DNA of 64,000 bases from the NCBI RefSeq assembly GCF_000379805.1, contig NZ_KB903540.1:9566-73565 (forward strand). Reading direction: 5' to 3'. The position numbers and the translations under genes are program-made. Shown piece by piece: positions 43,180-49,002 of the stretch (position 1 is its first letter; each line of letters opens with the position of its first letter). The notes below the pieces were generated by a model. It saw nothing but the letters and a program-made list of their open reading frames with translations. It ran no database searches and was not told the DNA's origin. Source of the DNA: Lewinella cohaerens DSM 23179. Lineage in GTDB: Bacteria; Bacteroidota; Bacteroidia; Chitinophagales; Saprospiraceae.

Positions 43180-43830
43180 TCAATCCTGCAATTTCGCGCC
43201 ATAGCTCAAATCGCCAGCATCACCCAAGCCCGGTACGATGTAGCTTTTGGCGGTTAGCTCTTCGTCGAGGGCCGCTAGCCAGATGTGAGCATCAGGGAAA
43301 TTACGTTGTAAATGCTCCAAGCCCAGGCGCGCACCAATAGCAACTACAAAATGAATAGCACTAGGCTTTCCGTAAGCTAACAAGGCTTGGGTCGCTAATA
43401 CCATACTGGCACCAGTTGCCAGCATTGGGTCACAAACAATCAATACTTTATTTTCCAGATCAGGACAACTGAGGTATTCAACTTCTATTTCAAAAGTTCC
43501 GTCTTTATGGTGTTTTCGGTAAGCCGAAACGAAGGCATTTCCTGCATCATCAAATACATTAAGCAAGCCTTGATGCAACGGCAAACCTGCTCGCAAAATA
43601 GTTGCCAGCACGAGTTCCTCTGCAGGCAATTCGGTAGGTGCTTGCCCCAACGGAGTTTCTATCGAATATTCTACATAATTGAGCTCTTTACTCAATTCGT
43701 ACCCGATACACTCCCCTAACCGTTCCATATTCCGGCGAAAGCGCATACTGTCTGCCTGAACATTAACATCTCGCAACTGGGCGACGTATTGATTAGCAAC
43801 AGAAGGAGTATCACTCAATAAATGGAGCAT
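43180..43830 (-). CDS. upp: Uracil phosphoribosyltransferase
   Basis: A 216-residue enzyme that salvages uracil to UMP with PRPP. The PRPP loop is VLIVCDPMLATGASM (about 129-143), and the uracil-binding tail is YIVPGLGDAGDLSYG. LRAGLPLHQGLLNVF matches the family's dimer/active-site region. The length is normal. It is monocistronic. Confidence 0.95.
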   Translation of the reverse strand: MLHLLSDTPSVANQYVAQLRDVNVQADSMRFRRNMERLGECIGYELSKELNYVEYSIETPLGQAPTELPAEELVLATILRAGLPLHQGLLNVFDDAGNAFVSAYRKHHKDGTFEIEVEYLSCPDLENKVLIVCDPMLATGASMVLATQALLAYGKPSAIHFVVAIGARLGLEHLQRNFPDAHIWLAALDEELTAKSYIVPGLGDAGDLSYGAKLQD

Positions 43831-43921: not shown

Positions 43922-45235
43922 TCATTTTTGTAATCCTTCATAAACCTCCCACCAGCCATCCCATCCGTGAAGGCTGGAAAAGCTACTGTTGTGCCAAAGC
44001 GTACAAAACTCCAATCCTTCTTTTTCGCAATACTCCTGCATATCTTTCAACGCCCCGACAGCTTCTTCGGCGGAATACCCCAAATATTGTTTAAGTGTTA
44101 CATCCATTACCCCAAAAGGATGAACCAACAGCTCAGTCACTTTATCCTCCTTCAGGTCATACCAGAAGAAAGGCTCTGTCGTTCCTGCTCGATAACCTGG
44201 CTCTGCGGCAAAGCCCATCGAATAATCATGGCGGATTCCAGCAGCCAATAATGCCCGGTAAGTATCCGGCAGGCGTAATCGTAAAAAATGCTGCCGACTA
44301 TGAGTAATTTCCGAGGCGGTAATCGTTTCCAAGCGTTTTTTATCACGCTCAATGATACTCGTAGCTTGCCAACTGTAATAAGAAGGATGAATACCAGGAT
44401 CGCTCCATTCGCTGACCTCCTTGATCAGCTTTTGGTAAGCGTCTAGCTTCCAGGATGGATTGATATCTTCGCGCGTCCTATTGGCCAACAACCAAAAAAT
44501 CCGGGGACGGATACCAGTGTCATTATGTAGTTTTTGCAAACGCGGAAAGGTAAAAAAAGGATCAGCCCTACCTTGCCGTTGAACCTGCCAACGTGCATGC
44601 ACCTGCCGCCAGTCTCTTTTCAGCAAATCTAAACCTACTCTACCCCAGCCTCGCAATCCACGATGGAGGTAAGCCCAAGGTAAATCAATATCATAGGTTG
44701 GCACAAAGACATACCCGGGAGGTTTCGGTTGCCAACGAGGGTGTTTTTGCGAAAATACAGCTCTCAAAAGCTTGCTCCATTCCCATAAAACAGGATATCC
44801 AAGGCAATTATTACGCGCCGCCCAAGAAGCTCTAGCAGGAAAACGACCATGCATATCTGGTTCAAAATGGAAATACTCTTCATACCTGCTCAAAAGGAAA
44901 AAACTTGCAGAAAACACGTCAAAAGGAAGATCATAGCCCGGGCCAGAAGCAAAAAAAGCAGGCTGATCACCAACAAGAAAAGAAGTAACAAACTGTTCTT
45001 TAATCCCTCGCTCATGGAGTAGGCCGTGAGGTTTAATATGCACTTCTTTACTACAAATAGGCGCACCTGAATAATTGCAGTGAATCCCGTTAAAAGACTG
45101 ATAGTCAATAGCCTGATGCGTCACACGCACCTTAAGACCCAGCAAATGAGTAAAAACATAATCCACAATATAAGTAAGCCTTGCACTAGGCTTCTCACAA
45201 TAGAAAATTGCCTCCATAACCTCAATTTTAAGCAT
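43922..45235 (-). CDS. Polysaccharide-deacetylase-like protein with DUF7033-type N-terminus
   Basis: A 437-residue protein without signal peptide. An N-terminal domain (about 1-165; HIKPHGLLHE, FFLLSRYEEYFHFEPDMHGR) precedes a NodB-like barrel with metal/catalytic candidates Asp-Ile-Asp (PTYDIDLPW), His (GIHPSYYSW) and RHDYSMGFAAEPGYRAGT. This architecture is found in bacteroidotal polysaccharide biosynthesis loci. An in-frame ATG 18 nt in (45217) is an alternative start. It is a lone gene, divergent from the GTPase module. Confidence 0.82.
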   Translation of the reverse strand: MLKIEVMEAIFYCEKPSARLTYIVDYVFTHLLGLKVRVTHQAIDYQSFNGIHCNYSGAPICSKEVHIKPHGLLHERGIKEQFVTSFLVGDQPAFFASGPGYDLPFDVFSASFFLLSRYEEYFHFEPDMHGRFPARASWAARNNCLGYPVLWEWSKLLRAVFSQKHPRWQPKPPGYVFVPTYDIDLPWAYLHRGLRGWGRVGLDLLKRDWRQVHARWQVQRQGRADPFFTFPRLQKLHNDTGIRPRIFWLLANRTREDINPSWKLDAYQKLIKEVSEWSDPGIHPSYYSWQATSIIERDKKRLETITASEITHSRQHFLRLRLPDTYRALLAAGIRHDYSMGFAAEPGYRAGTTEPFFWYDLKEDKVTELLVHPFGVMDVTLKQYLGYSAEEAVGALKDMQEYCEKEGLEFCTLWHNSSFSSLHGWDGWWEVYEGLQK

Positions 45236-45391: not shown

Positions 45392-45688
45392 ATGGCAACA
45401 TCAAAACCTACCTCCCTCACTGAATTGATGACCATCAGAGATATTCTGATGGGCGAAATTATTAGTGAATACAATGAACGTTTCGAAATAGTAGAAGCTG
45501 AACTCAAGGCGCAAAAAGCATCCTTGGAGGCCAAAGAAGCAGCGCTTGATGAACGTATCAAAGCGCTAGACGAGCTGCTACAACAAAAAAGTACTCACCT
45601 CGCCACTCATTTCGAAAACAAAATGAACGACGATCGCCAGTCGTTGAGCGCACTGTTCCTTTCTTTGGGACAAGAACTCAAGCGCTAA
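45392..45688 (+). CDS. Small coiled-coil protein, first gene of the GTPase module
   Basis: A 98-residue acidic protein that is almost entirely helical. A long coiled coil spans about 27-66 (RFEIVEAELKAQKASLEAKE, then AALDERIKALDELLQQK). The ends are TSLTELMTIRDILMGEII and a second short helix. It is separated from the next gene by 15 bp and continues in the same direction. A scaffold or assembly role for the downstream GTPase and longin-like protein is inferred from position only. I recognise no family. Confidence 0.75.
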   Translation: MATSKPTSLTELMTIRDILMGEIISEYNERFEIVEAELKAQKASLEAKEAALDERIKALDELLQQKSTHLATHFENKMNDDRQSLSALFLSLGQELKR

Positions 45689-45703
45689 CCAGCAAACAGG
45701 ATT

Positions 45704-46519
45704 ATGGGCACAACAGGATCAACGCAGGATAAAATTCTTTTGGAACGTCTTCGGGATGCACTCCTCAGCAAAGACCGCCAGTCGGTAGCTGAGGTAAAGC
45801 ATATCGTAGAGAGCAAAGAAGAATTGTCCAAGCGGATCAACCCCATTATTACTGCTCACATGAAGGAGCTTGAAGAAAACTTCCCTGCTCCATACATCGA
45901 AGTTGTTCAAAAAATTGTCGACCAGCGGATGCGGCAAAAGCAAGATGAGCTTATCAACATCTTGTACCCCCGTTTAGGCTTACTCATCAGAAAATACATC
46001 AACAACGAATTTCGCTTACTCCGCGAGCGCCTTGATCAGGTACTCAAAGAGTCTTACTCCTATTTACGCTTTTGGAAACGTAAAACAGCAGATGAAATCA
46101 TTATTGACCTTCGCCCATCTATTGTAGAAGAAGTCTATATCATCAGTCACGAGTCAGGTCTACTACTAGGCAGTGCATCCTCTACAGAAACGGCAGATAA
46201 AGACATGATCGCCGGGATGCTAACAGCGATCAAGGCTTTTGTGGAAGATGCATTCAAGCGAACAGACGAAGAACTCCGAGGCATCCAATATGGTAATTAT
46301 GAAATAATGGTTCATAACTTTTTTAATTACTACATTGCACTAGCTATCGCAGGTACGATTAGCGAACAAGAACGTGATGAATTGGCAGAAAAAATATTGG
46401 CGTTTGCTGCACGTGAACTTAATCATGACTTGCAACAACCAGAACCTGCTTTTTATGCTCACATGCAAAAAGAACTAGATGCTTATTTTATTAAACCCTA
46501 CAAAGCCTTGCCGCAATGA
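45704..46519 (+). CDS. Helical protein with longin/roadblock-like domain, predicted GTPase regulator
   Basis: A 271-residue cytoplasmic protein. Residues 1-125 are helical (LINILYPRLGLLIRKYIN, then FRLLRERLDQVLKESYSYLR). Residues ~130-240 form an alpha/beta domain beginning VEEVYIISHESGLLLGSAS, then DKDMIAGMLTAIKAFVEDAF, then IQYGNYEIMVHNFFNYYIAL. I know this segment from large OmpA-type proteins of cyanobacteria and myxobacteria, where the sequence order is the same; its shape resembles longin/roadblock domains that bind small GTPases. Here no OmpA domain follows; instead the GTPase gene overlaps it by 4 bp. It has no transmembrane segment. Confidence 0.75.
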   Translation: MGTTGSTQDKILLERLRDALLSKDRQSVAEVKHIVESKEELSKRINPIITAHMKELEENFPAPYIEVVQKIVDQRMRQKQDELINILYPRLGLLIRKYINNEFRLLRERLDQVLKESYSYLRFWKRKTADEIIIDLRPSIVEEVYIISHESGLLLGSASSTETADKDMIAGMLTAIKAFVEDAFKRTDEELRGIQYGNYEIMVHNFFNYYIALAIAGTISEQERDELAEKILAFAARELNHDLQQPEPAFYAHMQKELDAYFIKPYKALPQ

Positions 46520-47013
46520 TCAGTAAAAAGGTAGTCATTACCGGGCATTTTGGGGTTGGAAAAACCTCTCTCTTTAATCGCTTTATTACCAATACTTTTA
46601 ATGAAAAGTACCTTACAACAATTGGTGTTCGCGTAGATAAAAAAAGTGTCATTGTTAATGGAGAGGAAATATCCCTGATAATATGGGACTTGGCAGGAGA
46701 AGTTTCCCAGGAGAAGGTTCCTCGCTCCTATTTTTTGGGGGCTAGTGCCATTATTTATGTTTTTGACCTTAGTCGGCCGGCTACATTTAGCCGCTTAGAA
46801 GATGATCTGGTCTATATCAACTCTGTATTGCCCAATGTTTTAATCAGAAAGGTTGGCAACAAGAAGGATCTGGTTTCAGATCAAACCCTAAAAGATATCC
46901 GCGCACAAACCCAACCTCACTTTTTTACCAGTGCTCGTACTGGCGAAAATGTAGAAGAGCTCTTCGAAGGAATTGCTCGTAAATTACTGAGGCCATTCAG
47001 CAATCCGGAATAA
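46516..47013 (+). CDS. Ras/Rab-like small GTPase
   Basis: A 165-residue single-domain GTPase. G1 is GHFGVGKTS (10-18), the switch I threonine lies in YLTTIGV (32-38), G3 is WDLAGE (57-62), G4 is GNKKD (114-118) and G5 is TSAR (138-141). In Ras the residue after DTAG is the catalytic Gln; here it is Glu62, so intrinsic hydrolysis may be slow or GAP-dependent. The C-terminus (PFSNPE) has no cysteine for prenylation. Its ATG overlaps the upstream stop (ATGA). It differs from MglA, whose switch regions are distinct, but the pairing with a roadblock-like protein is analogous to MglA/MglB. Confidence 0.92.
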   Translation: MISKKVVITGHFGVGKTSLFNRFITNTFNEKYLTTIGVRVDKKSVIVNGEEISLIIWDLAGEVSQEKVPRSYFLGASAIIYVFDLSRPATFSRLEDDLVYINSVLPNVLIRKVGNKKDLVSDQTLKDIRAQTQPHFFTSARTGENVEELFEGIARKLLRPFSNPE

Positions 47014-47124
47014 AAGCGTCCATTTACCGTCATTTATTGCAGGTTCTGTACTGATCAGAGAACAATTATCCAACAAGACTCATTAATTTATAGTAAATTA
47101 CATGGATAACAGCTCTTGGTCATT

Positions 47125-47943
47125 ATGAAATATTTCTTCTCCTTACTATTTAGTTTAAGTGCCTGCTATGCTATTGCTCAGCAATCATTACCTGCCGGAC
47201 AGAACTACTATAATGATGCCAATGTAGGTATCGTCTATAACAAGGAGTTGAGCTTTGACTTTCGGTTACTCACCCCTCGTTCTTTTGCATTTGGTGTTAA
47301 TATCGGCGAACTCAAGAGTTATGACCGGACTCGTTTTTACAATTTCGAATTTGGAGACATCCGTCACCCTCAAGAATATCGCCAAAGTTTTGATTTCCAG
47401 TTTGGACCTTCTAACCGCGTTTCCCGTGCATTCATTTATGGCAAACAAAATAGCGCTTTCGTCTTAAGAGCAGGTATTGGCGAGAAACGTTATTTTTCGG
47501 AGAAAGCCAAAACTCGTGGATTAGCCATTGGCATGAGCTACCAGTTGGGTGCTAATATTGGCCTGGTTAAGCCTTATTACCTAGAGGTACTACGCTCACG
47601 TGACCCTGGCTCTGGTTCTACCCAGTTTTATGTTAGCGAAGAACGTTACAGTGATGCGAACGAAAACATTTTTCTTGACCTCAGTCGCATTATCGGCGCA
47701 GCTTCCTTTTCGAAGGGACTGAATGAATTGGCCATTATGCCCGGTTTCCACGCTAAAGCAGCAGCACATTTTGACTGGGGTGCATTTGATGAACTCGTAA
47801 AAGCTTTCGAAGCCGGTATACAGGTCGATGTTTATTTCAAAGACCTGCCAATTATGATTGAAAGCCCAGAAGTACCCCACCTGCAAAACAGCCCTATCTT
47901 TTTTAATCTTTATTTAAACCTGCAACTCGGTAAGCGTTGGTAA
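47125..47943 (+). CDS. Outer-membrane beta-barrel protein, Bacteroidota hypothetical
   Basis: A 272-residue protein with signal peptide (MKYFFSLLFSLSACYAIAQ). The body is made of alternating amphipathic strands (YYNDANVGIVYNKELSFDFR, FAFGVNIGELKSYDRTRFYN) and ends in NLYLNLQLGKRW, a terminal aromatic as in outer membrane barrels. Similar proteins occur widely in this phylum without function. It follows the GTPase by 111 bp in the same direction and may be, but need not be, part of that unit. The ATG at 47125 precedes the signal directly. Confidence 0.7.
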   Translation: MKYFFSLLFSLSACYAIAQQSLPAGQNYYNDANVGIVYNKELSFDFRLLTPRSFAFGVNIGELKSYDRTRFYNFEFGDIRHPQEYRQSFDFQFGPSNRVSRAFIYGKQNSAFVLRAGIGEKRYFSEKAKTRGLAIGMSYQLGANIGLVKPYYLEVLRSRDPGSGSTQFYVSEERYSDANENIFLDLSRIIGAASFSKGLNELAIMPGFHAKAAAHFDWGAFDELVKAFEAGIQVDVYFKDLPIMIESPEVPHLQNSPIFFNLYLNLQLGKRW

Positions 47944-48073: not shown

Positions 48074-48081
48074 TAACTTTG
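48074..48081 (+). promoter_or_regulatory. Bacteroidota -7 element of lipA
   Basis: TAACTTTG, 33 nt before the ATG at 48115. It overlaps a possible upstream TTG at 48079, so it favours the later start. Confidence 0.5.
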
Positions 48082-48114
48082 CAGTGCGATAGACGCCGAC
48101 AAATACAATCATTC

Positions 48115-49002
48115 ATGCTGGAATTACCAATAGTAGAATCCAAGGAAGCCCGACGCAAAAAGCCAGATTGGCTGCGAGTTAAACTACCTATCGGACCTAA
48201 ATACAAAAAGGTACGCTCACTGGTTGATGAGTATCAGTTGCATACTATCTGCCAAAGTGGAAGCTGCCCCAACATGGGAGAATGCTGGGGTGCTGGTACT
48301 GCTACATTTATGATTCTAGGCAACACTTGTACACGTTCCTGTAGCTTTTGTGCCGTCAAAACTGGTCGGCCACCTGAGTATGATGAAGATGAACCAAGGC
48401 GCGTGGCAGAAGCCATTGACCTGATGGGCGTAAAACACGCCGTTATCACTTCCGTCAACCGCGATGAGCGAAAGGATCGGGGAGCAGAAATCTGGTATCA
48501 AACCGTTGTCCAGGTTAAAGATCGTACCCCTCACGTCACTATCGAAACTCTCATCCCCGATGTACGAGCTACATGGGATGCTCTCGAACGTATGATCGAA
48601 GGAGGACAAGAGGTCGTATCACATAACATGGAAACCGTTGAAGAGCTTTACCGCAAGGTGCGCCCCCAAGGCAAATACGCCCGTAGTCTTGAGCAGATCA
48701 AACGCACCAAAGACTTCGGCAAACGTACCAAAAGCGGTATCATGGTAGGCCTCGGCGAAACCAAAGAACAAGTTTTGAGAATAATGGACGATCTCGTGGC
48801 CCACGGCTGTGATGTACTCACCATTGGCCAGTACCTGCAACCTACCAAAATGCACCTGGAAGTAGCAGAGTATATCCACCCCGATATTTTCAAAATGTAC
48901 GAAGAAGTAGGTCTCGAAAAAGGATTCGACATGGTTGAAAGTGGCCCACTTGTACGCTCGAGCTACCACGCTGAAAAACATGTTTTCGCTAGCAAAAAAT
49001 AA
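48115..49002 (+). CDS. lipA: Lipoyl synthase
   Basis: A 295-residue radical SAM enzyme that inserts two sulfurs into octanoyl-E2. The auxiliary cluster ligands are in [12 protein letters not shown], the SAM cluster ligands in [13 protein letters not shown], and the terminal RSSYHAEK supplies the conserved serine. The substrates in the cell would be lipoyl domains such as that of SucB here. lipB is not in the window. It is a single gene convergent with the T9SS Plug gene. Confidence 0.97.

Follow-up and report, generated by a model that had tools for sequence, protein, structure and literature searches.

What kind of GTPase switch is encoded by three closely packed genes of Lewinella cohaerens DSM 23179 (Bacteroidota; Saprospiraceae), and what do the two partner proteins do for the GTPase? 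The genes lie in a stretch of 64,000 nucleotides of contig NZ_KB903540.1 (assembly GCF_000379805.1, positions 9,566 to 73,565), termed the window in what follows, which is part of a 7.3-Mb genome whose completeness was assessed at 100%. They encode, in order, a coiled-coil protein (CC), a middle protein (LON) and a small Rab-like GTPase. An initial annotation, made from the sequence of the window alone, had described three packed plus-strand genes at 45392–47013, and this layout was confirmed: all three open reading frames (ORFs) are on the plus strand, CC and LON are 15 bp apart, and LON and the GTPase gene overlap by ATGA. The same annotation had read the genes as a separate GTPase switch, which stands, but it had missed both their Group 1 Rup identity and the usual fourth, output gene. 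We consider it probable that they form a reduced signalling module of the Group 1 Rup type, with LON as the regulatory platform of the GTPase. Group 1 Rup was described computationally in 2014 (Wuichet and Sogaard-Andersen, PMC4316618).

A scan of public genomes gave 347 relatives, of which 80 were kept and named; these include Saprospiraceae, Chitinophagales, Cyclobacteriaceae, Flavobacteriaceae (Nonlabens, Oceanihabitans), Roseivirga and Aureispira. The GTPase gene is downstream of LON on the same strand in all 80 named loci. CC is upstream of LON in 78, and in the remaining two LON is at a contig end, so that the synteny on which the annotated module had been staked is borne out. LON homologues were found in 25 of 150 genomes of the order, each time with the GTPase adjoining. 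A separate search of these 150 genomes for the GTPase was positive in 28, namely the 25 with LON and three without, and 122 of the 125 LON-negative genomes were also GTPase-negative. LON and GTPase thus co-occur far above chance (one-sided Fisher test 1.7e-25, uncorrected for phylogeny, a value that overstates independence because the genomes are related). The operon is real and strongly conserved, and it belongs to a kind that has been described but not characterised. Of the order's 24 loci a single one has a gap of ∼1 kb between LON and GTPase, which holds an unrelated-looking ORF of 277 aa (L049:7836–8669, plus strand). Orphan GTPases of the family are found at L165, L166, L167 and L168, with neither CC nor LON detectable nearby; at L166 two upstream genes resemble the neighbours of the module in a locus of the same genus (L047), as would follow from a deletion that removed CC and LON but spared the GTPase. 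The viral contigs searched held no relatives, and a viral fold library gave no match at E ≤ 0.001.

The initial annotation had recognised a single-domain GTPase with five G motifs, and it was right in both respects: the protein matches Pfam Ras with E 1.5e-30, and GHFGVGKTS, T35, WDLAGE, NKKD and TSAR were all located. By sequence it is closest in the PDB to Rabs (Rab4A, E 2.9e-23), although its C-terminus, ending in LLRPFSNPE, is without the prenylation cysteine expected of a Rab. Across the family Asp58 of G3 is invariant (111/111), and position 62, that of the catalytic Gln, is Glu in 94 of the 111 members and Gln in none. Outside the nucleotide-binding motifs conservation is highest in switch I (0.79), with switch II second (0.69). 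No other single-domain small GTPase was found among the matches in the genome; the remaining Ras/Arf-type matches sit in long ORFs, two of which were read and are IF-2-like and HflX-like.

LON has no credible match in Pfam or NCBIfam, and a sequence-profile search of the PDB found no credible relative. An AlphaFold2 model was made from 110 aligned sequences (mean predicted local distance difference test score, pLDDT, 81; predicted template modelling score, pTM, 0.59, which makes the placement of helices relative to the domain uncertain). It consists of long helices followed by a β-β-α-β-β-β-α-α domain (Table 1). The first matches of this model in a Foldseek search of the PDB were p14/MP1, AP-sigma, Ragulator, roadblock, Fuzzy-Inturned, TRAPP, Ykt6 and MglB, with E from 1.4e-4 to about 3e-3. 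Structural comparison by VIA-align ranked AP-sigma (Z 12.4), VAMP7 (12.1), Mon1-Ccz1 (12.1), TRAPP Trs23 (11.9) and a Lokiarchaeal longin (11.5) highest; the longin and AP-sigma alignments span 115–130 residues with both C-terminal helices included, whereas MglB reaches Z 10.4–10.5 over 102 residues with the last helix excluded. Residues 138–269 are therefore predicted to have a longin fold rather than a roadblock fold; this assignment rests on prediction, since sequence profiles gave no credible PDB relative. The initial annotation had proposed a longin or roadblock-like segment here. The class holds as a prediction, specifically as a longin, and the roadblock option falls away. Conservation in LON is highest in helix α1 (0.78, against 0.31–0.73 elsewhere), and the most conserved residues are P89, G152, A175, F179, G217, L173 and L258. 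A candidate amphipathic membrane-binding helix ahead of the longin domain was rejected: neither its moment nor its charge is constant, and pLDDT is lowest in this region.

A resemblance of the middle protein to part of large OmpA-type proteins, itself without an OmpA domain, had also been annotated, and both points agree with our results. Proteins of 560–740 aa elsewhere in the phylum combine an N-terminal LON domain with a C-terminal OmpA domain, and some of them, in other classes of the phylum, have a BON domain too; a Pfam search found no OmpA domain in the LON of the window. A hydrophobic segment directly follows the LON domain in 12 of 12 long forms (19-residue Kyte-Doolittle mean ≥1.88). 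Among the short forms none of 107 is above 1.71, and the LON of the window, at 1.32, is well predicted to be a soluble short form without a membrane anchor. In the GTPase tree one branch (support 95) separates short-form from long-form loci, and among the 12 long-form loci there are 7 where the GTPase either sits on the opposite strand or was not found nearby. Three long-form CC-LON(OmpA) pairs (L068, L069 and L074) have no GTPase of the family within the 15 kb examined. At another long-form locus (L065:3905–5656, minus strand) the signalling gene beside the GTPase encodes a PAS domain and a sigma-54 activator. The parts of the 2014 description used here do not name this type of output. One apparent family match (G273/L077) was discarded as an alpha/beta hydrolase.

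Most relatives carry a fourth gene (F4), detected by hidden Markov model downstream of the GTPase in 62 of the 80 named loci. It starts with a domain of ∼115 aa that has a near-invariant Gln and a QQERNE-like motif, and for which a sequence-profile search of the PDB gave nothing credible. Sorted by length over all loci, F4 is kinase-sized in 32, longer in 13 (the two tested have a kinase plus receiver domain, sometimes with Hpt) and a stand-alone domain of <175 aa in 32. Its state changes at least 16 times on a quick GTPase tree, and no F4 was detected in 23 of 94 short-form loci. There is none at the locus in the window, and searches of the genome with two F4 profiles gave no credible match. 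A weak match (E 0.1) was rejected because its locus reads as a phosphoribosyltransferase-like ORF; the second profile gave only E 1.68. The nearest relative, a Lewinella metagenome-assembled genome (L085), likewise has no F4 at the locus; the next ones (L086, L093 and L090) have the stand-alone form. In L093 F4 lies between the GTPase gene and an outer-membrane-like gene, in the same chromosomal frame from which it is missing in L108, L085 and the window. At L153:5960–8400 several GTPase and F4 fragments lie in a row ahead of an intact pair, suggesting either a duplication of which one copy is decaying or an assembly error.

CC gave only weak coiled-coil matches in Pfam and NCBIfam. Near its start it has a motif (consensus IxxIRxIL[FM]G) that resembles one at the start of LON (LxxLRxILLxxDR). 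A comparison of the CC and LON profiles aligns these N-terminal segments alone (E 3.5e-4, probability 37%), and the CC profile also matches the LON N-terminus in two loci. The motif could plausibly be a shared helix through which the proteins dock or co-assemble, although support for this is weak.

From these elements, namely the gene order, the co-occurrence, the G-motif features, the longin fold and the missing anchor and F4, each observed or well predicted, the following mechanism can be proposed. The GTPase, the sole single-domain Ras-superfamily switch found in the genome, would be bound on its switch face by the conserved longin-domain helix of LON, a cytosolic and probably dimeric protein. 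The conservation peaks at longin α1 and switch I fit such binding without proving it. LON may then act in the manner of a guanine nucleotide exchange factor (GEF) or as a scaffold, which appears likelier than a GTPase-activating protein (GAP) with a catalytic finger, and CC, which shares the short helical motif, probably assembles with LON. In relatives the state of the GTPase would be read by F4, whose Gln-containing N-terminal domain occurs alone or fused to a histidine kinase; as F4 appears to have gone from the lineage of the window, output there would pass through CC and LON or through an unlinked target.

Several points weigh against this mechanism or against the assignment behind it. 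Three genomes of the order have the GTPase but not LON, and a further genome has a second GTPase copy without LON, so that the GTPase can persist in its absence. A LON-GTPase fusion was modelled as a read-through of the adjacent genes of L148 (stop codons as Gly, intergenic codons as linker, paired and unpaired rows); with pTM 0.62 it is confident in each domain and gives no interface readout, and a PDB search with it recovered Rabs alone, for the GTPase half. Paired covariation between LON and GTPase (108 loci; effective number of sequences, Neff, 90) was not used, because its top inter-protein pairs share a few hub columns, a phylogenetic signature. Longin domains also have roles independent of GTPases. 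Finally, the assignment to Group 1 Rup, drawn from G-motif features and partner genes, is a probable one.

Three other explanations were weighed. The strongest, although we regard it as unlikely, makes LON a GAP: LON, or CC, would complete the active site, as MglB repositions residues of MglA. With the G3 Gln absent from all 111 family members hydrolysis presumably needs help, the window has no F4 to give Gln in trans, and LON and MglB have the roadblock/longin core in common (Z 10.4, 102 residues), yet the most conserved residues of LON include no obvious catalytic Arg or Gln, and the top-Z longin matches are mainly GEF subunits and adaptors. A little less probable again is that LON is an effector or adaptor recruited by the GTP-bound GTPase, like AP-sigma or VAMP7, with regulators encoded elsewhere. 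The longins of these two proteins are among its nearest folds, and the transmembrane helix and OmpA domain of LON in other lineages look like an output or anchor, but no roadblock regulator was found in the genome; that LON of the order never occurs without the GTPase would be expected equally of an obligate regulatory partner and of an effector. That the module is a remnant in decay after the loss of its output gene, as the lack of F4 at the locus and in the genome and the kinase-less version of the nearest relatives could suggest, is very improbable, since all three ORFs are intact, identity to L085 is 63, 69 and 84% (GTPase 84%) with synonymous sites saturated, so that selection still holds the proteins, and the 23 of 94 short-form loci without detected F4 suggest a stable state.

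Table 1. Features of the module in the window, with positions numbered from its first nucleotide
Feature	Position	Strand	Basis or remark
CC, 98-aa coiled-coil protein, conserved family	45392..45688	+	ORF; N-terminal motif, coiled coil, C-terminal LG..L...G..L motif
CC N-terminal motif LTELMTIRDILMG	45416..45454	+	Family consensus IxxIRxIL[FM]G; no variation at Gly21 across 61 rows
LON, middle protein of 271 aa in the short form (no transmembrane helix, no OmpA domain)	45704..46519	+	
LON N-terminal motif LLERLRDALLSKDR, resembling the CC motif	45737..45778	+	
LON predicted long helices, residues 5–117, invariant Pro89	45716..46054	+	AlphaFold2 model
LON predicted longin domain, residues 138–269, ββαβββαα	46115..46510	+	AlphaFold2 model, structure comparison
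Longin helix α1, residues 166–184, most conserved element of LON	46199..46255	+	
GTPase, Rab-like, single-domain, probably of Rup Group 1 type, 165 aa	46516..47013	+	Pfam Ras match
G3 motif WDLAGE, Asp kept, Glu replacing the usual Gln	46684..46701	+	
Site of the fourth gene (F4) of relatives; F4 absent here	47014..47115	+	

The module is flanked by a phosphoribosyltransferase-like gene (43180–43830, minus strand), a gene for a DUF7033 protein (43922–45235, minus strand), a gene for an outer-membrane-like protein (47116–47943, plus strand) and a lipoyl-synthase-like gene (48079–49002, plus strand), all but the DUF7033 protein being named by reading the sequence. The same genes surround it in L085, L093 and L108; L086 and L090 share the left pair. 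Its chromosomal position is conserved, since flanking genes recur in several relatives.

To the known Rup framework this analysis adds the prediction that the Unc domain is a longin, a short form of LON that is predicted to be soluble, a fourth domain that is separable and a lineage without F4. The longin prediction gives a concrete biochemical hypothesis for the partner and bears on the origin of longin-GTPase pairs. That bacteria possess a genuine longin domain which regulates a Rab-like GTPase encoded in the same operon is doubtful as a whole; if true, the longin-Rab partnership of eukaryotic membrane traffic would have a bacterial counterpart or source, and longins would not come solely from archaeal roadblock proteins. 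Eukaryotic longins have been derived from prokaryotic roadblock domains (PMC3521125). Searches of the open-licence literature, subscription journals not being covered, found neither later experimental work on Rup nor a bacterial longin named in a Rup system; because a review table credits bacteria with ‘Longin/Roadblock’ as a joint entry (PMC4917890), the longin assignment is probably, but not certainly, novel. The three-gene form, soluble and kinase-less, is a convenient minimal set for reconstitution. It also tests the 2014 proposal that the output protein provides, in trans, the Gln which the GTPase lacks (PMC4316618): if F4 is truly absent in the lineage of the window, the Gln cannot come from F4 there. 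A role in gliding, polarity or envelope traffic, which the initial annotation had suggested, is unsupported either way.

Among known systems MglA/MglB is similar in pairing a small GTPase with a roadblock/longin-class partner in one operon. MglA, however, has Thr at a highly conserved Asp position (PMC3000849), and the G3 Asp is absent solely in MglA according to PMC4316618, whereas the GTPase of the window keeps this Asp; LON moreover is predicted to have a longin fold, not a roadblock fold, and to have long helices in its N-terminal half. Robl_LC7 (PF03259) has no match in the genome at E ≤ 0.01. Membership in MglA/MglB was rejected on the kept G3 Asp and the lack of a Robl_LC7 gene, in keeping with the separate switch first annotated.

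The eukaryotic longin regulators of Rabs (TRAPP Bet5/Trs23, Mon1-Ccz1, Fuzzy-Inturned) likewise pair a longin fold with a Rab-like GTPase, but the system in the window is without DENN, TRAPP or other companion domains, its GTPase has no C-terminal prenylation Cys, and LON has no credible PDB match by sequence. Asgard archaea also have longins alongside Rab-like GTPases (PMC10933270); there the small GTPase genes of MK-D1 are generally outside operons with roadblock, longin and TRAPPC3 genes, whereas here the linkage is consistent.

Group 1 Rup is the closest. The GTPase is single-domain (165 aa, for a criterion of <240 aa), with the G3 Asp and without the G3 Gln; CC corresponds to the coiled-coil gene and LON to the gene with the ‘Unc’ domain, in fixed order and without MglB; and relatives of the window encode a signalling protein whose N-terminal region contains a near-invariant Gln. 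The 2014 description left the Unc domain unassigned and has the Unc protein often continuing into a transmembrane helix and an OmpA domain (PMC4316618). The window differs in that its Unc protein has neither (the source says ‘often’, so they are not obligatory), in the absence of the output gene, and in that the Unc domain is now predicted to be a longin. As the GTPase and two partners match while the anchor and F4 are lacking, we file the window as a variant of Group 1 Rup.
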